Position numbers and translations under genes: made by a program. The notes below the pieces were generated by a model. That model did no database searches, was not told the origin of the DNA, and saw only the letters and a list, made by a program, of their open reading frames with translations. A stretch of 42,460 nt of DNA from Candidatus Omnitrophota bacterium (GTDB lineage: Bacteria; Omnitrophota; Gorgyraeia; Tantalellales; Tantalellaceae): contig JADGBR010000012.1 in the NCBI GenBank assembly GCA_015231405.1, positions 41,606 to 84,065 on the forward strand, in the 5' to 3' direction. Below are positions 980-39,312 of the stretch, in pieces. The stretch's first letter is position 1; each line of letters opens with the position of its first letter.

Positions 980-3900
980 TAAGAAGTGCACGGGTTTAGT
1001 TGAGTGCAGGAGTGCACGGATTTCGTACGCACTCTTGCACCCATGCACCCGTGCATTAACTAGGCGTCTGACCTCGATAATAGTTCTCATCGCCTTCCTG
1101 CTGAACTCTCTGGTATATGACTCCGGGGCTTTCGAAATGAAGTCCGCGACTGAGTCGACGCTAGGCGTCTGGACTTTCACCGCCGACCCGGCGCTGAACC
1201 GCGAGATGCTTGCACAGTTGTATCTTAAGAACCGGATGATATGGAAAGCGGGGGTGAATAAGCGGTACGGACGCATCCTAAGGGATAACCGTGCTGATTC
1301 CATCATGCTCGCTTCTGGAAGGTATCTTATCAAGAACGGTATAGTCAAGGCGGCCGAGCAAGAGGACGGCGACAAATTGCCGCTCATCCGCGCGGTGACG
1401 CTCGAGGATTTCCACCTCCTTATGCAGTTATTCGAAAAGAATAACTGCTTAAAGTACGAGGAACTGATGAAAGTAACGCTTTCCCAAAAGGACCTTGTCG
1501 AGAAATACGCCTGCATATCGAACCACTCTAACGTAGCCGATAGGATAGCGAAGAAATACAAACGATCGGGAAGGACTATATTCAACGACATCATAGCCCG
1601 GGCATTCGTCTTAAAGTCACTGGTCGAAAATAAGGTTATGCGTAAGAGCGAGTTGTCTCCCGCTGATTCTGTATTTCTCGCTGAAGTCGAACCTGCGCTA
1701 AAACCCGCGGATTTTCCGGAAGAATTCTTCAATATCAAGCTGAGATCGGAAATAGTGTGGAAGTCCCAGCGGGATAGATCCGTCAGGTTCAGTCCGACGG
1801 CGGTTGCTCCCAGAGCAGAGCGCATCGCGCATAGGGCTCGAGGGAGGGTTGAAGAGGGAATCGTTTGGGTAACGGGGGACAGTCCCCAAAGTGACACCTT
1901 TCCGCACGAAAAATCGGGAAAAACGGGAAAAAATACTCCGCGATATCTGGATCTGAATAAAGGCGCGATAGAAAATGTCGCGAGGGAGATAGAAGTGAGG
2001 CGGGTTTCTGCGGGTAGGACGCTGGTGGTCGGGCTTGACGGGGATAAACACGCGTTCAAGAGCACTTTTGTGAAGGCGGTCGAAAGGGAATTGGATAAAA
2101 GGCTGAAGGTCAAGGTCATAAAGCTGGACGATCATCTCATCGAAGGGTGGTATGTGGACGGCGAAATGATAAGGGAAGAGGGTTGGGACTGGTATCGTAT
2201 AGCGGGCGATATCGCGGTTTCGAGCGATTCGGGGCAGTACGACATTATTTTTGTCGAAGGGTTCGAGCTTTTTAATATCGCGAAAAGATCTAATATACCC
2301 ATGGATGGATTTGGTCTTAAGATCCATGTTGTCGCGGACGTGGACACGAGGACATGGGGGTTCATGTGCGACGGGGTCGGGGATCGGGAAGCCGCGAGAA
2401 AAATGGCGGTTGAGATAATCGAGAAATATCCCGAAGGTCTTACCGTCGATTACGATCTTGTAGTGGATACGAGCATCAAGAACTGGGGAGAGGCTAAAGC
2501 CGAGATATATGAGCTTGCCAGGGAAGAATACGGACCGGGTATTCCGGATATGACTTTATCGATATTGTCCGGCGACGGTTTTCTCAATCTGGGAAAGGCC
2601 GAGGAACATGCTGACCCGTTTGTCCTTGCCGGGACCGAAGAATTATATTTTCCGATCGCGGGCATCCATGAATATATGCCCCAGACCCCGCTCATCTCGG
2701 AATGCAAGCTGGATGTATCCGATCCCGAAAAGGGTTTAGCTCTGGGTAATTTATTCAATTCCGAGATGAGCGGTATTTCGGGGAATAACTATTACGCTTT
2801 GTTCGCGGACAGGATGTTCTTCGCGCTTATTAGATCAAATGAAGCGGAAACCGACTGCGATCTTATTTATATCGACGGAAAAGATATCGCTCCAGGCGGT
2901 CCGGTCGATTATTGGGTCGCGAGACGTAAAACGCCGATCAAGGTCTATCCGATGAGGCCGAAACGATGTGTGGAAGAGGTCATGGTCGAAGTTCATGGCG
3001 GGACTCTGGAAGGAATTAAGATCATGGTCCATGATTGGGACGAGAAGGCAGGAAGAGAGACAACCGGTAACGGTCCTGCGGTGGCCCTTATTCTTAAGGG
3101 CGGGGAATGGGAAGGGTATATTTTGAACTCTCGTCAGCATGAGGTCATCAATAAAACATGGGCAGAGCTCTGGGATAAAGGATACGCGGTCCCGGCTGGG
3201 CATTTTCTTTATGATGATGTACGTGAAAAGCTGGCCGAAAGGGGGATTGATGGAGTTGTCAATATACACAGTCCGCCTAACGATATTTTCTACGATACGC
3301 TTTACCGTATAGCGCGTCAGAACAAAGTCATATTCCCATGGCGCGATAAATTCCGCCTTGTCACCCACCCCGGAACGTACAGGGACGAAAGGGGTACCCC
3401 CGGGGCCTATAACCTTCTTATTCCCGCAAGTGAACTCGTGTACCTTGAAAAATTGAAAAATGTAGGCCTGCAGGGTTATGAAGAGTGGCTTAACCACGAA
3501 ATAGGCCATTTCTTGGATAGGAGGGGGAAAAAACGCGGATATGAAATGCCCGAGAGGTTCATCGGGGAGATGTTCCCGACAGATCTGTTCGTAGGTTCGC
3601 TCAATATGGTAAAAAGGCTTAGTGAAACCATGGCCGGCCCGGGGTGGAGCACGGCGCGTTTAAGGATCTATTTTCTCGGCGCAAAGCTAATGGCGGGGAT
3701 AAGACGTACCCTCTATTCCTTATGGGGCGTCACTTCCGAGGAAATGGACGAGAAAGCTAAAGCGCTCGCAGCCTTGGAGGATGCGGGCGAAGGATATACG
3801 TTGGCCGGAGATACCGACCTTAAGATATCCCGGCGGATGCGGAGAATACTCGGTACCGGGATATTATTTATTCGCGATGGGATATATGACCCAACCGCTG

Positions 3901-6900
3901 AGAACGGTCTCGGTGTCTATTTTGCTGAACGGGTGTTTGAAGAAACGGAAAAACTTTTAAAGGCCGGCTTCGATAAGTCGAGGCCGTTAAAGGTATTTGT
4001 CGTAGGTGCAGGCACAGGAATAGACTCCATGGCGGCTATTTACGCAGCTAAAGGCCTTGGACACGATATCCATCTTACCGCTACCGATATTGACCCTGAA
4101 GCCGCGAGGAACACCTCTCACAATATAAACTTCTTTATGGACAGGTTGCTAGGTAGGAACGACAGGGTGGAGACGAGGTCTCAGAAAACGCTCGATCCTT
4201 TTGCTGCGTCCGGGGGGAAGAGGTACGATCTTATACTTTTCGACGCGCCGAATGTCACGGCCAGCAGCTTCGACGAGATAGCGCATCACGGGATAAATAT
4301 TAATTCGGGTGAGTTCAAGAACATACTTCGCGGCATAGAGGAACATCTGGAGGATAAAGGGACCGCGGTCATAGGAAGTCAACGTTTCACCGGGAAGCAT
4401 TTTCCGGAAAGGCTGCTTACGGATTTTTACACGATCCCGGAACTATATGGTTCCGGTGAAGGCGCCGGTCCTTATGACAGGGTCATTTTTACGGCGAGGT
4501 GCCGTTCCACTCCGCCCGAGAGGAGAGGCACACCCGCCGCGTTGCTCAAATACATGCACGAAAATCCTGTCTTTTTCGGGTCCCCTGCCAAAGCCGCCGG
4601 CATGGCCGGTAAAAGAGGCGGCAGGGACGGCATAAGGACGATACATCGCGAACTCAAATTTCTTCGTGAGATACGCCTCGTCGAACGTAACGCCGAGGGA
4701 TATTATCTGGCCGGATGGCTGGAGGGAGTTGATATAAAAGAGTTCATAAAACAAAACCCGCTACTCGATAAAGCTCCGCCATCGAGCGGCGCGATGCCCC
4801 AGGACCTGAAAGCACGCATTTACGCGGGGATGCTCATGTACTGGGCGGGACTTCCCGACGAAATAAGGGAAAAATGCTCATTCCAGCCCAGGTGGGGAAG
4901 TTTCCCGGGATCACTTGGCGTGGATGGGGTAACAATGACGCCCGACGTATGGCACGTTATCCAGCCGTATAGCATACCGACAAAAGAGGATATGGATAAT
5001 GGGAGAGAATCGGTCGAATATGTCTCAAAAAAATCCATTATAGCGATACAGACGGTTTACAATATGGCTAAGCCTAAAAGGAAAGATATATTGGATCAGA
5101 TAGTGGTACGGTATCCGCTGGACAAATCCCTGGCATGGGTGAGGGAGGCCCTTGATATATGTGAAGAAAATGCCTCGGACAGTTATCTGAAGGGCGACGC
5201 CATACGGATAAGTGACGCGATAACCTTAATAGCATCGGATGTCAGAGTCTACTGCGCCAGAGAAAATTTGCCTCTGTTCTCCTACTCTCCTTTTGTGAAG
5301 AATTTTTCCATGGTGAATTATTTCGTGGATATAACTATGCCGGCGTTTTTGATGGTGGAGCAGTATGAATGGGATCTGGCGGGTGAAATAGCCGCTATTT
5401 GCGGAGGCGTGAAAATTGACGCCGTGGATTTTTATAAGAAATATTTCGAAGCCATGACAAACGCGATATTGTACGGCGATAAACAAATGACCGCGCATTC
5501 CGGCAGGGACCTGAGGGCCGTTTTTGAGGAGGTTGGAGAGAGGATATTTTCAGGTAAGGATGTTGCGGGACCCGAACAAAATGAAAGATCGGCGGGAGGC
5601 GCGGATAAAACGTCGCCTGAAATGAAAGGATATAGTTTTGCCGGGCGTCTCAGCGATATTGAAAAGCGCGATATTGCGGAAGGCAAAGCGGATATAAATT
5701 CCATCGTGGATGGTAAGAGCGAAATGCATATGGGGATAAAGTCCGGGATATTTGCCGATATGCTCCTTTACTGGGCCGGTTTGCCGGACGACGCGCGGAA
5801 AGATTCGGCGTTCAAACCTAAATGGCACCGGGATCCGGATATGCTCGGGAAAGAAGGCGTCACGATCACTCCTGAAGTTTACAGGCAGCTGGTCGAACCG
5901 GGGCTTCCGGGAGACAATTATCCGGACAACGCGAAAGTGGAACAAGAAGACCTGGATAAGATATCGCTGATAGTCATACAGGCCGTTTTCGATGTGGCGG
6001 AAACTACCAGGATGGATTTTTTCAGTAGGGTGATAGAGCGGGAATCCGTATCCTCTACAAGCGAGTGGGTCCGGGCCGCGATGGGTGTCATGGAAGCGAA
6101 TGCGCGGGATGAAGAGATCCTTAACCAGTCGCTCTGGATACTGGAGGACATAGTTCATATGAAGAGAGAGGCCGCGGCCTACCTGGGTGCAAATGGTTTC
6201 GATATGGTCTCATTCTCGCCGTTCCAGAAAGGGTTCATGCTCCTGGAAACCTTGATAGAGAGCTCCGGCCATGAGGGTGAAACGATGAGTTATCATTCAG
6301 CGCTGAACAACATCGACGCCATTTATCATATTTACAGGGATTCCCACTGCGATACGGCGGTAGCCGCCGATATTATTCTCAGTGAGATATCGGATATAGT
6401 TTCGTCCGATTCGGGACATTTGGGGACGAAACACGGAAAAAAGCTCAAAGATATCGCCGAAGGAACCGCTGCTAAACTGCGCGCAGCCTGGTCGGTGTCA
6501 AGTCCAGAAAAGTCCATAGTCCATGATCCGCACCTTCGACAAGGCAACGGAGGACAAGCATGGTCCATGGTCAACCAGTCTCTTTATTCACAGATCGAGC
6601 TGGCGTTCATGAAGATGTATAAGGCGGTGAGCGCGAAGGAGAACGGTTTTGTCGAGGCGCTTAGCGCTTTGTGGAATTCGGAGGCGTGCCGTGACCTTGA
6701 GAAGAAAAACGTGACGAAGCTTAAACTGTGCGTGCCCATTGAAGTGTTCAGGAACACGGCCGACAGTGCCGCCGCTTTCAAGAAGATCGATAACCTCATG
6801 AAGAAAGGGATAGAGTTCGAGCTCGTGCTCACATGTGTCGGGGAAAAGGATATGGCGGTCGCGGAAGCTATAAGGGACGATGAAAAGACGAGGAAAGCTA

Positions 6901-7343
6901 TCGGTATGCCGGAAAAGCTGACGGTCGATATTAAAACCATGAAAGAGATGACGGAAGAAGCCGATCCGAGGGTCAAATATGACCTGGTATCTCCGGCCGG
7001 AAGGATGCAACTTACAAAAGATATGTATGCGGGGAGACTTGTCGATAACGAATACGCGGTGATCGTGAGCGACGCCGTCGGGAAGGATGAAGCCGGAGAT
7101 CTTGTAAAGGAATTTCTGAAAGACGGCGACGCGGAAAGGAACTTCTCTTTCAGGGTCGCGGAGAAACCGGAGGAAGGTAAGGACGAGATGGTCTCCCTCG
7201 CGGCTATTCTCGACAGCTGGGTAAGCTCGCTCGCGAACGGTAACGGAGCGACGGCTCAGAGCATCGCGCCGGTCCCGGTCGCGCTTGTCGGGCAGATCGT
7301 TACGTTGATGGAGAACGCTTGGAAAGTGTTGGGAGCGGCGTAG
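960..7343 (+). CDS. Giant secreted multi-domain protein: P-loop kinase-like, HEIGH metallopeptidase-like, methyltransferase, tandem duplication
   Basis: About 2127 residues. I prefer the ATG at 960 (GAGAGGG seven bases upstream) over that at 945. A signal peptide or anchor has its hydrophobic core near residues 40-52 (IIVLIAFLL). Modules in order: a helical region; a uridine-kinase-like P-loop near 356 with an abnormal Walker A (GLDGDKHAFKST) and a following LDDH; an unassigned region; a zincin-like H846-E-I-G-H850; a class I SAM methyltransferase with motif I VVGAGTGIDS near 1010, then ATDIDPEAARN and FDAPN; a winged-helix-like stretch; a duplicated unit beginning near 1279 and again near 1589 (MLMYWAGLPD / MLLYWAGLPD); and a C-terminal alpha/beta domain. 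Two stretches, near 306-325 and 1847-1872, are repeat sequence translated in frame. The substrates are unknown. The combination of kinase, peptidase and methyltransferase in one exported chain is odd; I am sure of the gene and moderately sure of each domain. Confidence 0.85.
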   Translation: MFLWRHSKKCTGLVECRSARISYALLHPCTRALTRRLTSIIVLIAFLLNSLVYDSGAFEMKSATESTLGVWTFTADPALNREMLAQLYLKNRMIWKAGVNKRYGRILRDNRADSIMLASGRYLIKNGIVKAAEQEDGDKLPLIRAVTLEDFHLLMQLFEKNNCLKYEELMKVTLSQKDLVEKYACISNHSNVADRIAKKYKRSGRTIFNDIIARAFVLKSLVENKVMRKSELSPADSVFLAEVEPALKPADFPEEFFNIKLRSEIVWKSQRDRSVRFSPTAVAPRAERIAHRARGRVEEGIVWVTGDSPQSDTFPHEKSGKTGKNTPRYLDLNKGAIENVAREIEVRRVSAGRTLVVGLDGDKHAFKSTFVKAVERELDKRLKVKVIKLDDHLIEGWYVDGEMIREEGWDWYRIAGDIAVSSDSGQYDIIFVEGFELFNIAKRSNIPMDGFGLKIHVVADVDTRTWGFMCDGVGDREAARKMAVEIIEKYPEGLTVDYDLVVDTSIKNWGEAKAEIYELAREEYGPGIPDMTLSILSGDGFLNLGKAEEHADPFVLAGTEELYFPIAGIHEYMPQTPLISECKLDVSDPEKGLALGNLFNSEMSGISGNNYYALFADRMFFALIRSNEAETDCDLIYIDGKDIAPGGPVDYWVARRKTPIKVYPMRPKRCVEEVMVEVHGGTLEGIKIMVHDWDEKAGRETTGNGPAVALILKGGEWEGYILNSRQHEVINKTWAELWDKGYAVPAGHFLYDDVREKLAERGIDGVVNIHSPPNDIFYDTLYRIARQNKVIFPWRDKFRLVTHPGTYRDERGTPGAYNLLIPASELVYLEKLKNVGLQGYEEWLNHEIGHFLDRRGKKRGYEMPERFIGEMFPTDLFVGSLNMVKRLSETMAGPGWSTARLRIYFLGAKLMAGIRRTLYSLWGVTSEEMDEKAKALAALEDAGEGYTLAGDTDLKISRRMRRILGTGILFIRDGIYDPTAENGLGVYFAERVFEETEKLLKAGFDKSRPLKVFVVGAGTGIDSMAAIYAAKGLGHDIHLTATDIDPEAARNTSHNINFFMDRLLGRNDRVETRSQKTLDPFAASGGKRYDLILFDAPNVTASSFDEIAHHGININSGEFKNILRGIEEHLEDKGTAVIGSQRFTGKHFPERLLTDFYTIPELYGSGEGAGPYDRVIFTARCRSTPPERRGTPAALLKYMHENPVFFGSPAKAAGMAGKRGGRDGIRTIHRELKFLREIRLVERNAEGYYLAGWLEGVDIKEFIKQNPLLDKAPPSSGAMPQDLKARIYAGMLMYWAGLPDEIREKCSFQPRWGSFPGSLGVDGVTMTPDVWHVIQPYSIPTKEDMDNGRESVEYVSKKSIIAIQTVYNMAKPKRKDILDQIVVRYPLDKSLAWVREALDICEENASDSYLKGDAIRISDAITLIASDVRVYCARENLPLFSYSPFVKNFSMVNYFVDITMPAFLMVEQYEWDLAGEIAAICGGVKIDAVDFYKKYFEAMTNAILYGDKQMTAHSGRDLRAVFEEVGERIFSGKDVAGPEQNERSAGGADKTSPEMKGYSFAGRLSDIEKRDIAEGKADINSIVDGKSEMHMGIKSGIFADMLLYWAGLPDDARKDSAFKPKWHRDPDMLGKEGVTITPEVYRQLVEPGLPGDNYPDNAKVEQEDLDKISLIVIQAVFDVAETTRMDFFSRVIERESVSSTSEWVRAAMGVMEANARDEEILNQSLWILEDIVHMKREAAAYLGANGFDMVSFSPFQKGFMLLETLIESSGHEGETMSYHSALNNIDAIYHIYRDSHCDTAVAADIILSEISDIVSSDSGHLGTKHGKKLKDIAEGTAAKLRAAWSVSSPEKSIVHDPHLRQGNGGQAWSMVNQSLYSQIELAFMKMYKAVSAKENGFVEALSALWNSEACRDLEKKNVTKLKLCVPIEVFRNTADSAAAFKKIDNLMKKGIEFELVLTCVGEKDMAVAEAIRDDEKTRKAIGMPEKLTVDIKTMKEMTEEADPRVKYDLVSPAGRMQLTKDMYAGRLVDNEYAVIVSDAVGKDEAGDLVKEFLKDGDAERNFSFRVAEKPEEGKDEMVSLAAILDSWVSSLANGNGATAQSIAPVPVALVGQIVTLMENAWKVLGAA
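985..1056. repeat. GTGCAC-word hairpin
   Basis: AGTGCACGGGT pairs with ACCCGTGCA, with further GAGTGCA / TGCACCC copies inside. It lies just after the stop of the first gene and at the same time encodes residues about 9-33 of the giant protein that overlaps it, before the hydrophobic core. Confidence 0.8.
1875..1935 (+). repeat. GGGGACAGTCCCC repeat inside the first giant gene
   Basis: A perfect 13-base palindrome (1875-1887) followed by AAGTGACACCTTT, a form seen as a dispersed REP-like repeat in other genomes, then CGGGAAAAA copies. It is read in frame as a linker just before the kinase-like domain. Confidence 0.65.
6503..6572 (+). repeat. CCATGG-word and CTTCGACAAGG repeat inside the first giant gene
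   Basis: GTCCATAGTCCATGATCC, then CACCTTCGACAAGGCAACGG, then GCATGGTCCATGGTC. The outer words match the CCATGG hairpin family; the centre encodes LRQGNGGQ, like the repeat peptides seen in other environmental genomes. It is in frame, between the duplicated units and the C-terminal domain. Confidence 0.7.
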
Positions 7344-7365
7344 TTAGCCTGTTTATTGCCTGGTT

Positions 7366-7490
7366 CCGTGGGACGTGGGAAGTGGGACGTAGGGGATGAG
7401 ATGATGAACGTAAAATGTGGGTTGAAAATGTTGGATATGAACAAGGGGCTAATACCGCACGTCCCACGTCCCACATCCTACGTCCTACGT
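7366..7490. repeat. GGGACG-word hairpin (family A)
   Basis: Left arm of GTGGGACGT words (7368-7394) and right arm of CGTCCCAC/CGTCCTAC words (7459-7489). It follows the first giant gene, and its loop and right arm encode the N-terminal residues of the second one. Confidence 0.85.
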
Positions 7491-10400
7491 TTTACGATAA
7501 CCCTCTTCCTGACGGTTTCACTTATCGCCCCGACGGGCACAGATGGAGAGTCCCAGGAGACGGGCGCGGCGACCCTCGCCGTTATGGACGCGGCGAGCCG
7601 CGGGGTGCCTCGGGCCGCGCGAGCGAAGGCGTACAGGGAGCTGCATGAACAACAACGTGCGCCTGAGTACGGTGGGAAAGGCGCGTGGGATCTGGCCGTC
7701 GAGGAGCTCGCGTCCAAAATAGGGTACAAACATCCGGGGTCGGTGCACCTCACTATGCGCGAAGTATGGGCGAGGTTCATAGAGGAAAACCGGGAGCTGG
7801 TCGACCGGGGTAATTCTATGATCGCTAAAGACGAAGAATTCTCGGCGACCGGCATAATATCCGTGAAAACACAGGACGCGCTCCGTTCCATTATCCGCAA
7901 TATGAGATTATCGAGGGAACTCAAGGCTTTTATAAAGGCGCAGACAGCTAAGCTGAAAGGCTGGCTTATAGGACGATCCAGCGGGATATATGAGGACGGA
8001 TTTGAGACCAGCCTCGCGGGTGTCTTTAGCTCATTCAAGAAATCCGACGAGAGATTTGTCGTAAGGGCCGTCCGGGATGTATTCGTGGATTCGATAGGCA
8101 AGGTATGGATAGACCAGAATAAACGCGAGGTAAGGCTTAAAGGAGTGCCTGATACGCTTAATGAGAAAGAGGGTTTTGCCGTGGTGGTACAGCCGTTCCT
8201 TAAGTTTGAGTCTTCGGGAACGGCAAAAACCGATTATTACCGGCATATTTCCATTGAGACCGTTTTCGGCGACGCCGATTACGCCGTTCGGAGCATACAC
8301 GCTAATGCCGCAGAGTTCCTTTTCGATAAGAGGACGGGGGAATACGAGTTTTACCCGTCATATCTCTCCATGCCTTACGAGGTAAGGATAAATGGAGAAG
8401 AGTGTTCGATGAAGGACAAACCCGGGAGGATCAGGGAGTTGTTGGCCGGGTATCCACGGATAGGCCCACGCGGTGAAACAAGTCCTTTATCCGATGACCA
8501 GGCCCGTGAGGTCGCGCGTGTTGCGGAGAGCCTTGAGGAATGGATAGGCGTGCCATTGGATATCGAATGGGGATTCTTTGAAGGGGAGCTTTATATAATA
8601 CAGGCAAGGCCTATGGTCAGGGAATTCTCGGAAAAGCTCATTGAAAAGGACCCAAAAGCGTTCGAAGATAAGGAGCTGGCCGCCGGTACGCCGATAGCAC
8701 TCGGACAGACGAATAGCGGTGGTTTTACCGGTAAGATGGTCCTTTTCGGCGCGAACGTCAAGGACGAAGATATTAAAAGAGTCGAGGAGGATGAGAGCCA
8801 AAGAGGAGGATTTATACGCGTCCAAAAGGATATCGCTACCAGGGTGCTCGATACCGGAACAAAAGCCGGCGTGCTCGTCGACCCGGAGCAGGGTTCGCGC
8901 CAGGCGCATAATATAACCCTTATTGAGGACAGGATACATGACGGCGAGTTCGTCTACGCGAACGGTCCGGTGCTTAAACAGGATCTTATGAAAAAGATAA
9001 GGTTCGTTCCGCATCCGGACATAGCGGACGTATGGATATCATCTCTAGAGGTCACATATTTCTCAGACGGGCTTAAGGGGAGTTTTTACACTAAGATCAA
9101 GAACGGAGTTCGAGAGCCTGTGGAAGCTATCGGGCCTATGTCGGGTAACGTTAAAAGGCGTTTTATGGATGTCAAATACCTGCAGCTTTATCTTAAAAGA
9201 AATTCAGAAGGAAGAGATACGGATAAAGCTGTTCCCGAAATATTGAGGGATTTTGGCAAGTTGCATAGATTTGGTCCGCTGGTCGAATATATGAGAACCG
9301 ACGGGAAGAAGGACATGGCAAAAATTATGGGTCGAGCCGTGGAGAACGAGGATATAGGAAGGCACATGGTCGCTATAGATCATTTATGTTCCGCGCTTAA
9401 CTACCCCTTATTTCCGAACGAATGGGATAATCCGCTCGTCGCGCGCCTATCTAAAGTCAAGGAGTTCCGCGCCGAGTATAAACGCTGGGTCGTGAAAAGA
9501 TCAAAGCCCGCCATAGGAAAGATATCCGAATCACCCTTCTCATCTCATCCATTACCCGTTAACCCGGGGAAGATAAGGGTGCTGGTCATGGACGATGACA
9601 AACGGAAACTTTCGGATTATGCTCTCCGGCTCGACAAGGTATTCGCCGGCGACCCGACTTTCGAGATAGAATACGCCTCGAGTTGGGAGATAGCGTCGGG
9701 AAAAGTCGCGAAAAAAGCTTTCGATCTCACTTTTTTGGATTACGAGATGCCAAGAGGAACGGAATGGACGGACGCGCGGATAGCGGAACTTATTCCGGGT
9801 TTCGGCGGCATAATGATATCATCCGAAGCCTATCCGGAATGGATGGTAGAAGCCGAGGAGGAGGGAGCAGGGACATTGCTCGGATTGATATGGCCCGGGA
9901 GGGATCTCAGAGAGGAAGGGTTCCCGTATATGGATAGCGCCCGGGATATGCTGCCGGGAATGATAGCTAAAATAAAGGGAACCTATGACGCGCTTGTCCC
10001 CGGGGCCGAAGCGTATCAGGGTTTGCCTAAAGACTCTATTGAGCCGCGTGTGCCAGATAGACTCACGGTTCTTTTCATACAAGATGATCCCAAAAGGAAC
10101 GATTGGGAAGGCCAATGCCGCGAAGTGTTCACCTCTGACGAATACGATTTTATCACGGCCGATAGTTTTGAGAAAGCGGCGGAGCTCTTAGGCACACGGA
10201 AAATAGACTGCTGTATCGCGGATATCGGCGGTACGCATGTCGACAAGAACTATGGGGAACTGCGAAAGATGTTCGGTCACGGCGTTTATGGTATGGGGCT
10301 TTATTCCGGGATATTTCTTCAGAGCGGTGGAGCCATGGCCGAGGATGCCCATAGGGAGTTCCTTGAAGAAGCCGGTTTTTCAGCGGATGACAATATCGCT

Positions 10401-12422
10401 ATAAATCCGGATATTATAGGGTTCGTGAAGAAAGCCCGGCTATGGCAGGAAGAGGATCATGCCCGGATGAGAGAGAGATGGCTGGCCGCGGGTAATAAGA
10501 GCCTTGAAGAGACTGGCGCCTATGAGGCAGGCGAAGGCAAAGAAACGGTATACGTCATAGAGAACGACCCGGGGAACGCTTACGATCTTGCCGAAAGGAT
10601 AAGAAAAGAAAGGGGTTCGAAATACCGGGTCATGCGAATGAGCTCAATGAGCGAGCTGAGCGCGGCTCTGGGGAAAGCCGTTCCCGACATAGTGGTCACC
10701 AACGCTTTTCTTGACGATAAAGATGAGCTTTCGGAGATTATACATGCCGTGACCATAAGGAACCCCAAAGCCCGGTTCATCGTCGCAAGTTACGACGCCG
10801 CCGCGCGGTCGCCTATTACGGGCAGGCTTGACACGGCGAGGCGCAAGATCGAGGAAGGACATGACGCGTATATGGACCGTCTCAGAAAGGTCTACAATAA
10901 GGGCTGGGACGCGTTATCTGAAAAAACGAAGGCGGTTCTCATTGACCCGGAAAAGTCTTTCTGGGGTGAGACGCTGACGCCCGAAAGCTTTTATGAGATA
11001 TATACTTTCCTAAATCCTGTTCATCCTACGGAACATTCTATGAAGTTCTATGGAGCTCATCCCGGCCTTTTCAACGAGAGAGGACATAGTATTAACCAGA
11101 AGATAAGGTCCCTTCTCTACAAGATCGTCAGACTTGGCGTAATTAACAGCCTAGATAGAACGTCCGCGGAAAAAGACCAGCTTAAAGGGCATGAAGTTCA
11201 CGGTACCTGGGAGAGCGTGCCTGACGGGATACTTGAGACATATATAAGCGCACTCCTCCGCGACCAGAACGAATGTAGAAAATTCTCCCAGGAAATGATG
11301 ATCCCAGGTGAAATGCTGGGATTCGAATGCGGGTTCGGGGACGAAGGGGATTTTATGCCCCCGGGATATCGTCGGGATGAAGAAGCAATTCGAAGGAATT
11401 CGATGGGAGTGATAATATCAGGAGCAAGGGGATATCTGGTCTATGGCCGGTTGAACAGGGCCATTAACGAATATAGAAGAGCTCTTATCAGGTCATTGTC
11501 TGGCGCCGATCTAGAAAAATATAATAGAAAACCCAGCGAACTAATGTTACTAACCCGTGATGAACTTGTTGAGTTATACCGTACGATCGATAATTCGCTT
11601 TTTGATCCCGAGGCGGTCGGAATGATATTAGAGGAATTATTGAATATGAAGAATGGGTGGTTCGAAGAGGCCGGGTTTGTGGCTCGGGAGCTGGGTATTA
11701 GAAGTATTATCGACGCTGTGGGCAAGGAAGAAAAAAATAACGTTATAGGTATAGTCGAGACCCCGTTCCATTTCGGGGACGTCATCGACGTTCTTGACGG
11801 CGTCGATAAGGAGAAGGAAATAGCCGCGGGTGAAACCTTCAAGGCGGAGGAAGCTTCCCGTATATGCGAAGGTATGTCTCCGGGGAAAGACGACGGGGAG
11901 CCCGGTGTAATAAACATCTGGTCCGGATACGCCCGGGATCCGAAACAAAGGGAACTAATGGAAGAATTTTCGCGAGCAAGTAAAGGCCGGGCTTATTCGA
12001 TAAGGGTTTATGACGATCTTGACGAGCTGGCGCTCGAAGCATCCAAAGATGACGGGACAAAAAAAGTCACTATTTTGCCGTATATCCACCTGGGCCGTAA
12101 GTTCGGGATCAGGAAATATCCCGAAAATTCCGGAGTTCTTTTTATGGATATGCCCGAAACAATGGGGGAAGGTCTTTATGAGTTCACCCAGATCGGGACC
12201 ATCATAATGACCGGCGTCGCCTTCCTTAAAGGTGACGAAGACGCGCTGAACGGTTTATACGCGCTTCTAACCGGCGAGACCCATTTCATCCGGTTAACAA
12301 TGTATCTTCTCAGGGAACATCCGAGCACTGTAAAGTTCCATATCACCCCTTCCTCCCTAAACAACTATAATGACTTCACACGCCTCAACCGAATGATGCG
12401 GCAGATACTAAGCTTCGCATAA
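7401..12422 (+). CDS. Giant secreted protein: PEP-synthase-type ATP-binding domain plus three receiver-like domains
   Basis: About 1673 residues from ATG 7401 (AGGGGATGAG upstream); an in-frame ATG at 7356 would place more hairpin sequence in the protein. A hydrophobic segment (FTITLFLTVSLIAP, from 7491) is the signal peptide or anchor. Residues 190-405 match the nucleotide-binding domain of PEP synthase/PPDK: RSSGIYEDG at 192-200, VVVQPF, DIEWGFFEGELYIIQARP ending at 404. A possible phosphohistidine swivel follows (SRQAH, H503). The PEP-binding TIM barrel of a true PEP synthase is absent. Then come three response-regulator-like domains: D731-D733 with D780; D895/D896 with D941; and E1054-N-D1056 whose phosphoacceptor position is N1101. 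The remaining 500 residues are mostly helical and unassigned. A phosphotransfer role is suggested by the parts, but catalysis in an exported protein is unproven. Upstream is the GGGACG hairpin; downstream the next gene has its own promoter. Confidence 0.85.
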   Translation: MMNVKCGLKMLDMNKGLIPHVPRPTSYVLRFTITLFLTVSLIAPTGTDGESQETGAATLAVMDAASRGVPRAARAKAYRELHEQQRAPEYGGKGAWDLAVEELASKIGYKHPGSVHLTMREVWARFIEENRELVDRGNSMIAKDEEFSATGIISVKTQDALRSIIRNMRLSRELKAFIKAQTAKLKGWLIGRSSGIYEDGFETSLAGVFSSFKKSDERFVVRAVRDVFVDSIGKVWIDQNKREVRLKGVPDTLNEKEGFAVVVQPFLKFESSGTAKTDYYRHISIETVFGDADYAVRSIHANAAEFLFDKRTGEYEFYPSYLSMPYEVRINGEECSMKDKPGRIRELLAGYPRIGPRGETSPLSDDQAREVARVAESLEEWIGVPLDIEWGFFEGELYIIQARPMVREFSEKLIEKDPKAFEDKELAAGTPIALGQTNSGGFTGKMVLFGANVKDEDIKRVEEDESQRGGFIRVQKDIATRVLDTGTKAGVLVDPEQGSRQAHNITLIEDRIHDGEFVYANGPVLKQDLMKKIRFVPHPDIADVWISSLEVTYFSDGLKGSFYTKIKNGVREPVEAIGPMSGNVKRRFMDVKYLQLYLKRNSEGRDTDKAVPEILRDFGKLHRFGPLVEYMRTDGKKDMAKIMGRAVENEDIGRHMVAIDHLCSALNYPLFPNEWDNPLVARLSKVKEFRAEYKRWVVKRSKPAIGKISESPFSSHPLPVNPGKIRVLVMDDDKRKLSDYALRLDKVFAGDPTFEIEYASSWEIASGKVAKKAFDLTFLDYEMPRGTEWTDARIAELIPGFGGIMISSEAYPEWMVEAEEEGAGTLLGLIWPGRDLREEGFPYMDSARDMLPGMIAKIKGTYDALVPGAEAYQGLPKDSIEPRVPDRLTVLFIQDDPKRNDWEGQCREVFTSDEYDFITADSFEKAAELLGTRKIDCCIADIGGTHVDKNYGELRKMFGHGVYGMGLYSGIFLQSGGAMAEDAHREFLEEAGFSADDNIAINPDIIGFVKKARLWQEEDHARMRERWLAAGNKSLEETGAYEAGEGKETVYVIENDPGNAYDLAERIRKERGSKYRVMRMSSMSELSAALGKAVPDIVVTNAFLDDKDELSEIIHAVTIRNPKARFIVASYDAAARSPITGRLDTARRKIEEGHDAYMDRLRKVYNKGWDALSEKTKAVLIDPEKSFWGETLTPESFYEIYTFLNPVHPTEHSMKFYGAHPGLFNERGHSINQKIRSLLYKIVRLGVINSLDRTSAEKDQLKGHEVHGTWESVPDGILETYISALLRDQNECRKFSQEMMIPGEMLGFECGFGDEGDFMPPGYRRDEEAIRRNSMGVIISGARGYLVYGRLNRAINEYRRALIRSLSGADLEKYNRKPSELMLLTRDELVELYRTIDNSLFDPEAVGMILEELLNMKNGWFEEAGFVARELGIRSIIDAVGKEEKNNVIGIVETPFHFGDVIDVLDGVDKEKEIAAGETFKAEEASRICEGMSPGKDDGEPGVINIWSGYARDPKQRELMEEFSRASKGRAYSIRVYDDLDELALEASKDDGTKKVTILPYIHLGRKFGIRKYPENSGVLFMDMPETMGEGLYEFTQIGTIIMTGVAFLKGDEDALNGLYALLTGETHFIRLTMYLLREHPSTVKFHITPSSLNNYNDFTRLNRMMRQILSFA

Positions 12423-28982: not shown

Positions 28983-30701
28983 TTAAACGAACTTCGAGAA
29001 GAACTTGTCTATTTCCTCGCGGGTGTGGAGCTTGTAGTAGTCTTTCAGGAGATCGCCGGGTGTTTCATTGCCGATATGCATGATGGAGCATTTTATGTCG
29101 TCGAATTTTGACGGGGTTACGCTGAAGCTTTTAAGGCCCGCCGCTATGAGGAGCGGATAGAATTCCTCGAACGACGAAACCTCGCCGCAAAGGCATACTT
29201 CTTTCTTCGCTTTTCGGGCTTCCTTGACAATTATCTCTATGTATTTCATGAGGGCCGGGTGAAGGATGTGGTACCTCTTTTCGGTCATGGAGGTGTTCCT
29301 CGATACCGCCAGGGCGTACTGCAGCAGGTCGTTGGTCCCGATATTGACGAAATCCACCTCTTGGAATATCTCGGATGAAGACATAACGGCTGCCGGGGTC
29401 TCGATCATGACCCCTTCGGGTATCTTTACAGGGTTAAATGGTACTTTCGCCCTTTTAAGCTTCAGCTTCGCCTCGTTCATGAGTTTTCTGAACGGTTGTA
29501 TGTCGTTCGTGTCCGATATCATCGGGTAAAGCACACGGAGATTGTTTCCGGTGTTCGCTCTTAGAAGCGCCTTGATCTGGGTCAGATACAGGTCAGGAAA
29601 AGTCTCGACGGCGAACGAGCCCCGGAGGCCCATGCAAGGGTCGGTGTTAGGGGGCAGCTCCAGGAAAAGCGGTACTTTGTCGGCGCCGATGTCGAGAAGC
29701 CTGGCCGATACCGGCTTACCCCGGGTCGAGTCGAGTATTTTTTTGTACATGGCGTATTGTTCCTCTTCGGTGGGCGCGTAGTTCCTCTGCGTGAAAAGGA
29801 ATTCGGTCCGGAGGAGGCCTATGCCGTCGTGCCCGAGGGCCTCGGCCCTTTCCGATTCCTCCGGGGTGCTGATGTTGATCTTCAGGGTTATCTTCTTCCC
29901 GGTGTTCGTCGCTGTCGGAAAGTTCTTTTTTGCGACGCATACCAGTTTCTTCTTTTTTAAGGACTCTATCTTCCTGTTATAGTAATCGGTTGTTTTGGCG
30001 TCAGGATCGACTATGACCTTTCCCAGGGAGCCGTCGACCGCGAGTATAGTGCCGCAGGATATCGTCCCTACATCGACGCCTAAAACGATCGGTACGCCGA
30101 GTGAGCGGGCGAGTATGGTGGCGTGGTTCGTGAGCCCGCCCTGCTTGGATACAAAAGCCAGAACGTCCTCCGCCGCGAGGTCGAGGACAAGCGACGGGAT
30201 CAGCCTGTCGGCGACAACTATTACCGGGCGGATCTTTTCCGCCGGGCAAAGGGCCTGTGCGGATTTTGACCCGAGCTTTTCAAGGATGCGGTTCCTGGTA
30301 TCGATAAAATCATGTATCAGCTCCGCGAAATGCCCTTCGAGATTGCTGTATTTATCGATATATTCGGCGAATACCGTTTCGAGGGCGCTCTCTGCGTTCA
30401 CCTTCTGGTTAAGGATGGAGTGATAGACCTTTTTGTGTATTTCCGCGTCCTCGAGGATAGTGAGATGCGCGTGGAATATGTCAGCCGCGTCCCGGTCGAA
30501 GGACTCCCTCGCGTTCTTTATCATAGTACGCATTTCCGACTGGGCTTCCTTAAAAGAGGAATCCGCGCGGTATATCTCTTTTTCTATATCTCCTGAGTCT
30601 ACCGTGTAGTGGGGAATATGGCTCTTCTCCTCCGAAGAGAAGAGGGAAACCGGCCCCAAGGCCATACCCGAAGCGGCGGACATCCCTTTAAAGATCTTCA
30701 T
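28983..30701 (-). CDS. ptsI: Phosphoenolpyruvate-protein phosphotransferase, PTS enzyme I
   Basis: 572 residues, the normal enzyme I length, and the only protein gene on the minus strand here. The N-terminal domain begins FKGMSAASGMALGPV. The phosphorylated histidine is H193 in GGLTNHATILARSLG. The PEP-binding barrel shows GIGLLRTEFLF, the MGLRGSF arginine loop, and CLCGE near the end. Enzyme I takes phosphate from PEP and passes it to HPr; it lacks the GAF domain of the nitrogen paralogue. HPr and sugar permeases are not in the window, so whether it drives sugar uptake or only regulation cannot be decided. A TTGATT-N17-GATACT promoter precedes it and a shared hairpin follows its end. Confidence 0.95.
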   Translation of the reverse strand: MKIFKGMSAASGMALGPVSLFSSEEKSHIPHYTVDSGDIEKEIYRADSSFKEAQSEMRTMIKNARESFDRDAADIFHAHLTILEDAEIHKKVYHSILNQKVNAESALETVFAEYIDKYSNLEGHFAELIHDFIDTRNRILEKLGSKSAQALCPAEKIRPVIVVADRLIPSLVLDLAAEDVLAFVSKQGGLTNHATILARSLGVPIVLGVDVGTISCGTILAVDGSLGKVIVDPDAKTTDYYNRKIESLKKKKLVCVAKKNFPTATNTGKKITLKINISTPEESERAEALGHDGIGLLRTEFLFTQRNYAPTEEEQYAMYKKILDSTRGKPVSARLLDIGADKVPLFLELPPNTDPCMGLRGSFAVETFPDLYLTQIKALLRANTGNNLRVLYPMISDTNDIQPFRKLMNEAKLKLKRAKVPFNPVKIPEGVMIETPAAVMSSSEIFQEVDFVNIGTNDLLQYALAVSRNTSMTEKRYHILHPALMKYIEIIVKEARKAKKEVCLCGEVSSFEEFYPLLIAAGLKSFSVTPSKFDDIKCSIMHIGNETPGDLLKDYYKLHTREEIDKFFSKFV

Positions 30702-30725
30702 TGAATATCTCCCTATTTATTAACA

Positions 30726-30754
30726 AGTATCCTGCATAACACCCCAATAATCAA
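30726..30754 (-). promoter_or_regulatory. Probable ptsI promoter
   Basis: Read on the minus strand: TTGATT (30754-30749), 17-base spacer, GATACT (30731-30726). The expected start is near 30719, leaving a short leader with GGGAGAT as ribosome site. Confidence 0.5.
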
Positions 30755-30759
30755 GTAAA

Positions 30760-30788
30760 TTGACATTTTTTTGTTATTATGTTAATTT
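30760..30788 (+). promoter_or_regulatory. Promoter of the tRNA-Cys unit
   Basis: A perfect TTGACA at 30760-30765, a 17-base spacer and a weak TAATTT at 30783-30788. It is divergent from the ptsI promoter. Confidence 0.55.
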
Positions 30789-30834
30789 AGCAGCCGGATA
30801 TCAACCTGGGCGCGAAAAAGAGGGGCTCAGGCCT

Positions 30835-30908
30835 GGCGCGGTGGCCGAGAAGCTAGGCAGCGGTCTGCAAAACCGTCCACACCGGTGCGAATCCGGTCCG
30901 CGCCTCCA
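30835..30908 (+). tRNA. tRNA-Cys (GCA)
   Basis: The acceptor stem GGCGCGG (30835-30841) pairs with CCGCGCC (30898-30904). The anticodon loop CTGCAAA gives GCA, reading cysteine codons. The discriminator base is T, the expected identity element for cysteine, and CCA (30906-30908) is encoded. An element of about 155 bases begins at the next base. Confidence 0.95.
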
Positions 30909-31063
30909 ACCTTCGCTACATATGTTAAAGAGCTTATAGCTTCGGTTGGCGTCGGCCCGCTTTGCGGGCCTTGCCAGACGTGGTGTATACAGAAAAGCGA
31001 CGAAGTCCGCCGAAGCTGTGTAAGCTTTTCATATAAAAGCGAAGGCGGAAGGCGGGCAGAACG
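30909..31063 (+). repeat. tRNA-trailer repeat element, copy 1
   Basis: It starts directly after the tRNA-Cys CCA with ACCTTCGCTACATAT and ends GGCGGGCAGAACG. It contains a hairpin GGCCCGC-TTT-GCGGGCC (30954-30970). The tRNA end plus its first bases (CCAACC, 30906-30911) pair with GGTTGG (30944-30949). Copy 2 follows tRNA-Val. No reading frame or target-site duplication is seen. Confidence 0.8.
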
Positions 31064-31082
31064 AGTAACACCGATCAAAAAG

Positions 31083-31169
31083 GGGCGAGTGGCGGAATGG
31101 CAGACGCAAGGGACTTAAAATCCCTCGGCCCATAAAGTCGTGAGAGTTCGAGTCTCTCCTCGCCCACCA
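31083..31169 (+). tRNA. tRNA-Leu (TAA)
   Basis: Acceptor GGGCGAG (31083-31089) pairs with CTCGCCC (31159-31165); the discriminator is A and CCA is encoded (31167-31169). The anticodon is TAA and a variable arm is present, as expected for a leucine class II tRNA. Unlike its neighbours it is not followed by the trailer element, but by a short inverted repeat (TCCAATTT / AAATTTGGA). Confidence 0.93.
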
Positions 31170-31203
31170 GTTCCAATTTGTTGATGAAAATTTGGACTAA
31201 TGC

Positions 31204-31232
31204 TTGAATGACGGCGCGAAATATGCTATTGT
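31204..31232 (+). promoter_or_regulatory. Promoter of tRNA-Val
   Basis: TTGAAT at 31204-31209, a 17-base spacer and TATTGT at 31227-31232; predicted start about 4 bases before the tRNA. Confidence 0.6.
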
Positions 31233-31242
31233 ATCGTGTTAT

Positions 31243-31319
31243 GGGCGGTTAGCTCAGCTGGTTAGAGCGCCACGTTGACATCGTGGAGGTCACTGGTTCG
31301 ATCCCAGTATCGCCCACCA
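31243..31319 (+). tRNA. tRNA-Val (GAC)
   Basis: Acceptor GGGCGGT (31243-31249) pairs with ATCGCCC (31309-31315), discriminator A, CCA encoded. The anticodon stem CCACG/CGTGG encloses TTGACAT, anticodon GAC for valine. The second copy of the trailer element starts at the next base. Confidence 0.95.
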
Positions 31320-31469
31320 ACCTTCGCTACATATATAAGGAGCTTATAGCTTCGGTTGGCTGCGGTCCGCTTTGCGGACCTTGCCAGACGAGTTGTATAC
31401 AGAAAAGCGAAGGTTGCCCGCCGTAGCCGAATAATATTTAAATAGTTTGGCGAAGGCGGGCAGAAAACG
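31320..31469 (+). repeat. tRNA-trailer repeat element, copy 2
   Basis: It aligns with copy 1 over its first 100 bases with few changes. The central hairpin is GGTCCGC-TTT-GCGGACC (31364-31380), so one C-G pair of copy 1 is T-A here, a compensatory change. The CCAACC that spans the tRNA-Val end (31317-31322) again pairs with GGTTGG (31354-31359). The last part (CGAAGGCGGGCAG) is shared; the stretch before it has diverged. Confidence 0.8.
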
Positions 31470-31514
31470 CTAAACTAATCGGGAATCGATAGTTAACAAT
31501 TAAATAATAATCGC

Positions 31515-33254
31515 ATGTCTAAAAAACCCGACGAACAACTCCAGACCCTACGTCACAGCGCGGCGCATATTATGGCCGACGCGGTGCAACGTCTTTTTCC
31601 GGGTACTAAGCTCGGGATAGGTCCGGCCATTGACGACGGTTTCTACTACGATTTCGACAGCCCCACGGTATTTACGCCCGAGGACCTTCCTAGAATAGAG
31701 GAAGAGATGGCGAAGGTAATTAAAGAGGGCGCTGAATTCAAGAAAAGGGTGCTGTCAAGGGACGAGGCCCGGGATCTTTTCGGCTCGAAAGGCGAGAAAT
31801 ACAAGGTCGAGCTGCTGGACGCGCTTGATCCTTCGGAAGAAATATCCGTTTACTCTCACGGCGCTTTTACCGATCTTTGCAGGGGACCCCATATCGAGAC
31901 CGCTAATAAGGTCAAAGCCTTCAAGCTTCTTACCCTGGCCGGTGCTTACTGGAAAGGTTCCGAAAAGAACGCCATGCTGCAGAGGATATACGGCACCGCA
32001 TTTATGGACAGGGACGCCTTGAAAACTTATATTACCCTCCGCGAGGAAGCCGCTAAAAGGGACCACAGGAAGCTGGGGAAAGAGCTGGACCTTTTCAGTT
32101 TCAACGACGCCGCGGGAGCGGGACTCGTGATCTACCATCCTAAAGGCGCTATGCTGAGGATGCTCATCGCGGAGTACATCACGAAAAAACATATTGAAAA
32201 AGGGTATGAGCTTATTTCAAGCCCCCAGATACTTAAAAGCGATATATGGGTCAGGTCCGGCCATTACGGGTATTACAAAGAAAATATGTACATCTTTGAA
32301 AGCGACGATACCGAATACGCCGTAAAGCCGATGAACTGCCCCGGGCACATAATCGTTTACGCTTCCCAGACCCGAAGTTACCGTGAGTTCCCGATAAGAT
32401 ATTTCGAGCTCGGGCATGTGCACAGGCACGAGAAATCGGGGGTGCTGCACGGCCTTCTCCGTGTAAGGGGGTTCACGCAGGACGACGCGCATCTTTTCTG
32501 CCTGCCTGAACAGGTTGAGACGGAAATATGCGCCGTTATGGATTTCGTCAAGGAGACGCTTCTTGTATTCGGGTTCAAGGAATTCGAGGTGGAGCTGTCC
32601 ACAAGGCCCGAGAAATCTATAGGTTCCGATGAAATGTGGGAACAGGCTACCCGGGCGCTAAGAAATTCGCTGGAAAAAAATAAAATACCCTATGAAATAA
32701 ACGAAGGCGACGGGGCCTTTTACGGGCCGAAGATAGATATTAAGCTTAAAGACGCCCTATCAAGATCATGGCAGTGCGCTACTATTCAGTGCGATTTCGC
32801 TTTGCCGGAGAGGTTCGACCTTAAATATGTCGATTCGGACGGGAAGGAAAAACGGCCGATAATGCTGCACAGGGTCATACTCGGCAGCCTCGAGAGGTTC
32901 ATCGGAGCTTTGATCGAGCAATATGCCGGGGCGTTCCCGTTATGGCTGGCGCCTGTGCAGGTAAAGGTCATACCGATAGCCGAGGCGCATTTCGATTACG
33001 CCGTAAAAATTAAGGAGCTATTGACCGTTTCCGGGTTCCGTGTCGAGCTCGATCTCCGCAGCGAAAAATTCCAGAAGAAGATCAGGGACGCGGAGCTCGC
33101 GAAAATACCTTATATGGCGGTGGTCGGCGCCAAAGAGATGGAGGACGGAACGGTCGCCGTGAGGAGCAAGAAGCGCGGACAGGCCGGAGTGGTAAACAAA
33201 ACAGAATTTGTAGAACAACTAAGAAAAGAAGTAGAACAAAAAGCCGATTTATAA
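31515..33254 (+). CDS. thrS: Threonyl-tRNA synthetase lacking the TGS domain
   Basis: 579 residues; typical bacterial enzymes have about 640 and an N-terminal TGS domain. Here the protein begins almost at once with the editing domain (LRHSAAHIMADAVQRLFPG, and later HIETANKVKAFKLL). The catalytic core is complete: PMNCPGHI with the zinc cysteine, RHEKSGVLHGLLRVRGFTQDDAHLF as motif 2, and HRVILGSLERFIGALIEQ as motif 3. The C-terminal anticodon-binding domain is present (VQVKVIPI, LRSEKFQKKIRDAE). It attaches threonine to its tRNA and can probably still edit. No ribosome site is visible before the ATG, and no coding upstream could supply a TGS domain. It leads the infC-rpmI-rplT-pheST gene string. 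Confidence 0.95.
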   Translation: MSKKPDEQLQTLRHSAAHIMADAVQRLFPGTKLGIGPAIDDGFYYDFDSPTVFTPEDLPRIEEEMAKVIKEGAEFKKRVLSRDEARDLFGSKGEKYKVELLDALDPSEEISVYSHGAFTDLCRGPHIETANKVKAFKLLTLAGAYWKGSEKNAMLQRIYGTAFMDRDALKTYITLREEAAKRDHRKLGKELDLFSFNDAAGAGLVIYHPKGAMLRMLIAEYITKKHIEKGYELISSPQILKSDIWVRSGHYGYYKENMYIFESDDTEYAVKPMNCPGHIIVYASQTRSYREFPIRYFELGHVHRHEKSGVLHGLLRVRGFTQDDAHLFCLPEQVETEICAVMDFVKETLLVFGFKEFEVELSTRPEKSIGSDEMWEQATRALRNSLEKNKIPYEINEGDGAFYGPKIDIKLKDALSRSWQCATIQCDFALPERFDLKYVDSDGKEKRPIMLHRVILGSLERFIGALIEQYAGAFPLWLAPVQVKVIPIAEAHFDYAVKIKELLTVSGFRVELDLRSEKFQKKIRDAELAKIPYMAVVGAKEMEDGTVAVRSKKRGQAGVVNKTEFVEQLRKEVEQKADL

Positions 33255-39122: not shown

Positions 39123-39312
39123 AAGACTTTCCTGTCTGGTGCGAATGTGGGAAACGAGAAATTGTCTAACGCATTAATATAGGGGATCTAACTTTGGCTG
39201 TCCTCCGGGGCGGTCAAGAGGGTTCCCACCTGGGAAACCGGGCCATTTCTCAACCTGCGAAAACGGCCAGATGGGTCTATTTCGGGGCCGGGGATTACTC
39301 GGCCCTTTTTTT
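39123..39312 (+). ncRNA. ssrS: Probable 6S RNA
   Basis: About 190 nucleotides between a strong promoter and a strong intrinsic terminator with no reading frame. The ends form a closing stem: AGAC (39124-39127) with GTCT (39275-39278) and TCTGG (39135-39139) with CCAGA (39267-39271); GAGAAAT (39156-39162) pairs with ATTTCTC (39245-39251) further in. A small hairpin GGTTCCCA-CC-TGGGAAACC (39221-39239) lies in the 3' strand, as in other 6S RNAs. The RNA would mimic an open promoter and bind the sigma70 RNA polymerase. The neighbours rarA and fau support this, since 6S genes sit next to one or the other in many bacteria. A covariance-model search was not possible here. Confidence 0.65.
39285..39312 (+). 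terminator. Intrinsic terminator of the 6S RNA
   Basis: GGGCCG (39285-39290) pairs with CGGCCC (39300-39305) across a 9-base loop, followed directly by seven T residues. Confidence 0.85.

Follow-up and report, generated by a model that had tools for sequence, protein, structure and literature searches.

Palindromic elements at the mature 3' ends of tRNA genes in an Omnitrophota genome and their association with small GIY-YIG nuclease genes

The sequences directly behind tRNA-Cys and tRNA-Val in a Candidatus Omnitrophota genome are probably mobile DNA, two copies of a palindromic element whose insertion site lies directly after the mature tRNA 3' end; these copies have no open reading frame (ORF) and would be either non-autonomous or decayed. 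The family they belong to is most likely a small selfish DNA built from paired hairpins, often with a gene for a GIY-YIG enzyme, and present in several bacterial phyla. A full element follows the order tRNA...CCA, hairpin A, far arm, hairpin B (hairpin A inverted) and GIY-YIG gene; the 5' arm of hairpin A consists of CCA plus three element bases, and its 3' arm ends in TGGC. The exact junction with the tRNA end, the use of CCA as a stem, the inverted hairpin pair, the turnover of sites among relatives and the correlation of protein with site are all directly seen. The window, by which we mean the whole 42,460-nucleotide stretch analysed (contig JADGBR010000012.1), comes from an assembly of 3.66 Mb in 93 contigs.

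Within the window, tRNA-Cys(gca) (30835-30908), tRNA-Leu(taa) (31083-31169) and tRNA-Val(gac) (31243-31319) are followed by the thrS ORF (31515-33254), all on the plus strand. ARAGORN predicts the three tRNAs, Rfam also matches Cys and Val, and thrS anchored this conserved cluster in our empty-site comparison. The first-pass annotation had described an element of about 150 bp that begins at the first base after the CCA of tRNA-Cys and tRNA-Val and is missing behind tRNA-Leu, and alignment bears this out: aligned from CCA, the Cys and Val trailers are identical over the first 18 bases and 91% identical over the best 75, while nothing resembling them follows tRNA-Leu, which is an empty site. Neither copy holds an ORF. 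An Rfam scan of the window gave only tRNA and 6S RNA above the gathering score, and a permissive scan of 30890-31510 added sub-threshold matches only. The 6S RNA match (39126-39281) is barely above threshold, at 48.4 bits against a gathering score of 46.4. Elsewhere in the window, two adjacent and very long ORFs (2132 and 1688 aa) occupy positions 945-12422.

Hairpin A of the Cys copy spans 30906-30951 on the plus strand (covariance-model match G000:C3:72511-72556, E 2.6e-12), and the tRNA's own CCA (30906-30908) forms its outermost part. The pairing of CCAACC with GGTTGG reported in the first pass is found in both copies; the 32-base spacing is correct for Cys (30906-30911 with 30944-30949) but not for Val, where 31 bases separate 31317-31322 from 31354-31359. 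With this stem included, the Cys copy reads CCAACC-TTC-GCT ... AGC-TTC-GGTTGG, and the 3x3 internal loop stays unpaired. In the Val copy hairpin A lies at 31317-31361 on the plus strand (C3:72922-72966, E 8e-14) and takes in the CCA at 31317-31319. A linker hairpin follows in each, GGCCCGC-TTT-GCGGGCC in Cys (30954-30970, plus strand) and GGTCCGC-TTT-GCGGACC in Val (31364-31380, plus strand), with the single compensatory C-G to T-A change noted previously. Beyond it, a third, far arm of the GGCGAAGGTTG type also matches the 5' arm. In Val this arm, AGCGAAGGTTG (31406-31416, plus strand), is the exact reverse complement of the 5' arm and thus an alternative pairing partner; in Cys it is decayed. 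Each copy also has hairpin B, the hairpin A module inverted, at 31004-31049 in Cys (minus-strand match C3:72609-72654, E 1.8e-4) and 31415-31460 in Val (minus-strand match C3:73020-73065, E 1.4e-13).

A genome-wide look behind all tRNAs, proposed in the first-pass annotation, placed the element at nine of 46 tRNAs and at one tRNA-Ser 3' relic on contig C17 (46 tRNAs by the tRNA search and likewise by ARAGORN on the fetched loci). The occupied tRNAs are Cys, Val(gac), Arg(ccg), Arg(cct), Leu(caa), Leu(gag, with a shortened copy), Ser(cga), Ser(gct) and Ser(tga). We built a covariance model of the CCA-anchored hairpin A, termed R1, in which the element copies of this genome were included. R1 recovers the relic and eight of the nine tRNA copies (E 7e-18 to 3e-12), missing the shortened Leu(gag); beyond Cys and Val, six copies at live tRNAs and the relic copy score E < 1e-13, and at these tRNAs and the relic the match starts at the first C of CCA every time. 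Recovery of these copies follows by construction, but their exclusivity to tRNA ends does not. On the strand opposite to A, R1 also matches the hairpin B of most copies; as B had no part in building the model, the two hairpins are inverted versions of a single module. Across the genome R1 matches 52 places at E <= 1, and about 28 further single hairpin modules are dispersed elsewhere, some of them within other palindromic repeats. The concern that copies might lie away from tRNAs therefore applies to one level of the structure only: the two-hairpin element occurs only at tRNA ends in this genome, whereas the single module is not tRNA-linked. At loci L024-L027 (contig C21) and L021-L023, single modules are inserted in repeats of another palindromic type, GTCATTGCGAGGAGGCC...GGCCGACGAAGCAATC.

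Arm changes were assessed in 19 copies from this genome and its relatives, and they are not random. All nine stem pairs form in every copy (100% of cells), double changes affect 19 cells where shuffles average 4.9, and the covariation score is 0.351, compared with 0.134 for shuffles and 0.00-0.11 for slid versions. In the three CCA/TGG pairs the tRNA side is fixed, CCA being part of the tRNA itself, while the three pairs next to them covary (ACC/GGT, GAC/GTC, GCC/GGC, GCT/AGC, GTC/GAC). The 3x3 internal loop is never paired, reading TTC/TTC, TTC/TAC or TGC/TCC; on the other strand the loop of the main subfamilies is G(A/T)A opposite GAA, which is the loop of hairpin B. About half of the copies have a far arm that is an exact match to the 5' arm. 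An inner motif kept constant between freely varying outer arms is what a protein-read structure should look like, in RNA and in DNA alike, and the opposite orientation of A and B speaks for DNA. Covariation beside a tRNA is by itself no proof of a functional trailer RNA.

A search at genus level yielded this genome only. Turnover was followed in relatives, many of which have the Cys-Leu-Val-thrS cluster in synteny. All three tRNA slots are free of the element in G003, G005, G009 and G011. In G002 the Val slot alone is filled, by a CCTGAG...CGAAGG subfamily in tandem; in G010 and G001 all three slots are filled, mostly by genome-specific subfamilies; and G007 and G013 carry still other subfamilies at the cluster. 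The number of R1 matches per genome ranges from zero in six of 19 family genomes up to 51 (G010). We checked 14 strong R1 matches (E < 1e-11), spread over six genomes. All start at a CCA, which belongs to an intact tRNA in 12 cases and to a tRNA 3' relic in the other two. Judged from these assemblies, which are mostly MAGs, presence and absence, different subfamilies per slot and similarity within a genome are marks of mobile DNA.

The elements are further linked to a nuclease gene. At tRNA-Ser(tga), Ser(gct) and, in decayed form, Ser(cga) of the genome, a GIY-YIG ORF lies 3' of hairpin B, and a second subfamily with the same plan occupies tRNA-Lys and three tRNA-Lys 3'-end relics. The gene is small, encoding 80-100 aa, and matches Pfam PF01541 at E 3.8e-15 (Ser type) and 1.5e-23 (Lys type); NCBIfam has no family for these nucleases. 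In the Lys array (L080-L082, contig C55), an intact tRNA-Lys, a GIY-YIG element, a 26-nt tRNA-Lys 3' end and a second element follow one another, with a nucleotidyltransferase-like ORF nearby. Behind the nuclease genes of L086 and L087, 330-365 nt past the ORF start, lies an antisense 5' part of the neighbouring tRNA-Ser, 86% and 95% identical.

A contig scan with the Ser-type nuclease returned seven loci, from Omnitrophota, Patescibacteria, Bacteroidetes, UBP3 and unplaced hosts, and each has a tRNA or relic at the ORF, just 5' in six and just 3' in one (L099). Relative G042 shares its site with CP070837.1 (Candidatus Omnitrophota bin103; loci L097 and L138). Seven loci are too few for statistics, so we moved to whole-genome searches of relatives, where the best nuclease per genome lies behind a tRNA in 18 of 29 loci, one of these a tmRNA. 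Among 80 evaluable GIY-YIG loci, picked by similarity to the Ser-type protein so that the fraction is not valid for GIY-YIG genes at large, a same-strand tRNA (once a tmRNA) ends 37-269 nt upstream in 36, against a chance expectation of 0.2-0.5% for a tRNA just upstream. A downstream tRNA is present in 17, often less than 40 nt from the stop codon, and none of the 80 has an antisense tRNA within 1 kb of the ORF. In the tmRNA case (L120), the hairpin behind the gene starts at CCA and reads CCATGAACC ... GGTTCATGG. Eight loci with a tRNA 3' of the ORF (L123, L129, L149, L155, L161, L168, L217 and L223) have a 5' part of the same tRNA upstream, which palindromes split in the D-loop region (in L123 into bases 1-22 and 23-40); shortly past the stop codon the tRNA begins anew and is complete.

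The protein tree is based on 84 columns, too short for most forks, and only its supported branches were used. One clade (SH-aLRT 96) unites 23 rows including the window-type proteins; the catalytic GIY-YIG superfamily residues Y, Y-x-G, R, H and E are conserved across it. Of its 22 evaluable members, 20 sit at 3' ends of tRNAs of many amino-acid kinds; the remaining three rows are one at a contig end, which is unjudgeable, one behind a relic-like end and one orphan. This clustering indicates that the protein family goes with the site. Another supported clade, of ten rows (L136, L137, L139, L147, L150, L156, L158, L159, L163 and L165), has no tRNA just upstream or downstream, one member having a tRNA about 940 nt downstream. 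In the Bacteroidetes genome G062, none of the examined GIY-YIG loci is at a tRNA.

In a possible sequence of events, the nuclease would make a cut or nick in DNA, either at tRNA genes or at the ends of the hairpins, after which repair would copy the element in beside the tRNA; the ORF-less Cys and Val copies would have been moved in trans or have lost the gene. With its start exactly at the boundary of the mature tRNA, the element leaves the tRNA intact, and the site is thus a safe one. We infer the nuclease as the driver of movement, as well as the strand and chemistry of the step, and no GIY-YIG nuclease is known to insert DNA on its own at a site without homology. Strand exchange, fold-back synthesis and homing-type repair are candidate insertion routes. 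Hints come from tRNA 3' fragments repeated behind elements (bases 51-76 at +1233 in L080, bases 77-92 at +321 in L112), from the tRNA-Lys relic ends in the tandem array and from the tRNA-Ser 5' pieces that lie antisense behind two ORFs. Past the ORF, short repeats of the tRNA 3' end were seen at three loci only (L080, L112 and L104), and the distal element ends are poorly defined. For the ORF-less copies of the window, the presumed GIY-YIG link is drawn from hairpin homology, and the single modules away from tRNAs may point to another agent for the spread of the module.

The first-pass annotation had offered two readings, a selected RNA structure attached to tRNA 3' ends for processing or termination and an element that targets tRNA ends. 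The latter is strongly supported, by presence and absence at the same sites, by subfamilies that share slots, by uneven copy number and by the GIY-YIG linkage. The former, in which the CCA/TGG pairing would time 3' maturation or stop transcription, we consider very unlikely as the primary cause. It would account for the covarying arms and for 150-nt trailers that greatly outdo dinucleotide shuffles in folding (z -5.6 and -6.6, with none of 200 shuffles equal), and CCA-anchored stems of at least 6 bp occur at 15 of 46 tRNAs, compared with 1-6 for most anchors inside the tRNA, and include unrelated sequences at Phe (22 bp), Lys (23 bp) and Pro (11 bp). Against this, the same tRNAs in relatives are cleanly without the element, as are most tRNAs of the genome itself; no plus-strand intrinsic terminator (a GC-rich stem and then a T-run, read on the strand of the tRNA) is present in 30700-31520; and no Rfam family other than tRNA and 6S exceeds its gathering score. 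Hairpin B is an inverted A, so that a role as single-stranded RNA would read A and B differently, single modules occur elsewhere, and the linkage to a nuclease gene is left unexplained. The structure itself is really conserved, and a secondary effect on tRNA maturation is compatible with these data.

Covariation could also arise without selection for structure, through correction of quasi-palindromes by template switching or through fold-back synthesis from the tRNA end. Perfect arms with diverging loops would suit such correction, and fold-back synthesis could leave the antisense tRNA-Ser 5' pieces seen behind two elements. This reading covers the covariation only and is compatible with mobility; yet the 3x3 loop is mismatched in 19 of 19 copies while both flanking stems covary, and simple correction would erase the mismatch, so it is unlikely as the explanation, though it may sharpen the arms. 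A Y1 transposase of the RAYT/TnpA-REP type, or another enzyme, might instead move the hairpins with GIY-YIG as a passenger. The inverted pair resembles a BIME, single modules are dispersed and lie within other palindromic repeats, and the genome has six Y1 transposase genes, but a hairpin match lies within 1.5 kb of only two of them, in one case (L262) 1.1 kb away. Given also that GIY-YIG ORFs stand directly 3' of the hairpins in many genomes and that the GIY-YIG clade predicts the tRNA-end site, we regard a Y1 driver as quite unlikely. The tRNA 3' end is the classic target of integrases, and trailers could in principle be attachment-site remnants of ordinary tyrosine-integrase islands, a view to which the tRNA-Lys 3' fragments repeated between tandem copies would lend themselves. 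In the GIY-YIG loci that we read, however, elements of about 150-500 bp contain nothing but hairpins and a GIY-YIG gene, no integrase was noticed next to them, and the same element occurs at different tRNAs within one genome, which makes this origin extremely improbable.

The preferred reading, a mobile element that targets tRNA ends, shares features with several known systems. Like GIY-YIG homing endonuclease genes of the phage Seg type or of group I introns, the elements place a small nuclease gene beside its putative target and, as proposed here, would need no classical transposase to spread; tRNA genes are among the sites of group I introns (PMC3984707). In contrast to homing genes, the site here is the 3' end (or 5' half) of many tRNA specificities and of tmRNA, the hairpins are paired and inverted, ORF-less copies are repeated across one genome, and neither an intron nor a second DNA-binding domain is seen. 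Homing restricted to cognate, homologous sites does not describe a subfamily that is found behind Cys, Val, Arg, Leu and Ser tRNAs. With REP/BIME sequences and their RAYT (Y1) partners the elements have in common short imperfect palindromes, a conserved internal mismatch, inverted pairs (R1 finding A on the plus and B on the minus strand) and dispersed non-autonomous copies. They differ in a partner that is GIY-YIG rather than HUH/Y1 and in two-hairpin copies exactly at the mature tRNA end with CCA in the stem, and the RAYT arrangement of an adjacent Y1 gene flanked by the hairpin does not describe this genome, where only two of the six Y1 genes have a hairpin match within 1.5 kb.

Tyrosine-integrase elements at tRNA 3' ends have the same target, leave the tRNA intact and show tRNA 3' fragments repeated at tandem copies, but the present elements are far smaller, one subfamily occupies many tRNA specificities per genome and no integrase is seen in the loci read. 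The integron attC site was considered and rejected, as GTTRRRY, which forms the R' box paired with RYYYAAC, is absent from the 3' arms GGTTGGC, GTCTGGC, GGCTGGC, AGCTGGC and GACTGGC. Retrotransposons of Dictyostelium and yeast that target tRNA genes insert at a distance from the gene (PMC5006619, PMC5911963). They similarly use the vicinity of tRNAs of any identity as a safe haven in a gene-dense genome, whereas here the junction is exact to the base and no reverse transcriptase is seen. The rtT repeats of the E. coli tyrT operon are likewise repeated trailer units at a tRNA gene 3' end, in that case 178-bp tandem units at a single locus without a nuclease; the window trailers have no Rfam match above threshold.

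Uncultured bacteria often carry small GIY-YIG ORFs to which no function has been assigned, and the preferred reading gives these a testable role and target. We tentatively propose, at somewhat less than even confidence, a distinct class of mobile element in which a stand-alone GIY-YIG nuclease would recognise hairpins whose outer arms are free but whose internal loop is fixed and purine-rich (5' GAA or GTA, 3' GAA), and would insert where the mature form of any tRNA or tmRNA ends, the encoded CCA annealing to the TGG of the element, while related GIY-YIG clades would enter the tRNA 5' half and rebuild a full tRNA behind. The parts (GIY-YIG nucleases, REP-like hairpins and tRNA-end targeting) are of known kinds, and their combination is apparently undescribed: we found no description of tRNA-end GIY-YIG elements in the open-access journal literature, and a 2006 survey of GIY-YIG proteins does not mention tRNA targeting. 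The preferred reading would add a tRNA-end-targeted family whose partner enzyme is no known transposase or integrase, supply a nuclease that reads structure and disregards the sequence of the outer arms, and account for the repeats crowded around tRNA genes in Omnitrophota and Patescibacteria.

A second, different element of about 170-220 nt was also observed at tRNA ends, at L042, L045, L030, L010 and L072 in the same genome and at L185 and L193 in relatives, with no Rfam match above threshold. It carries an antisense (10-19 nt) and then a sense copy (up to 21 nt, in some cases only 7-9 nt) of the T-arm/acceptor of the adjacent tRNA itself. These elements have a common core, G(T/A)GGCCGACC, and their ends match whichever tRNA precedes.
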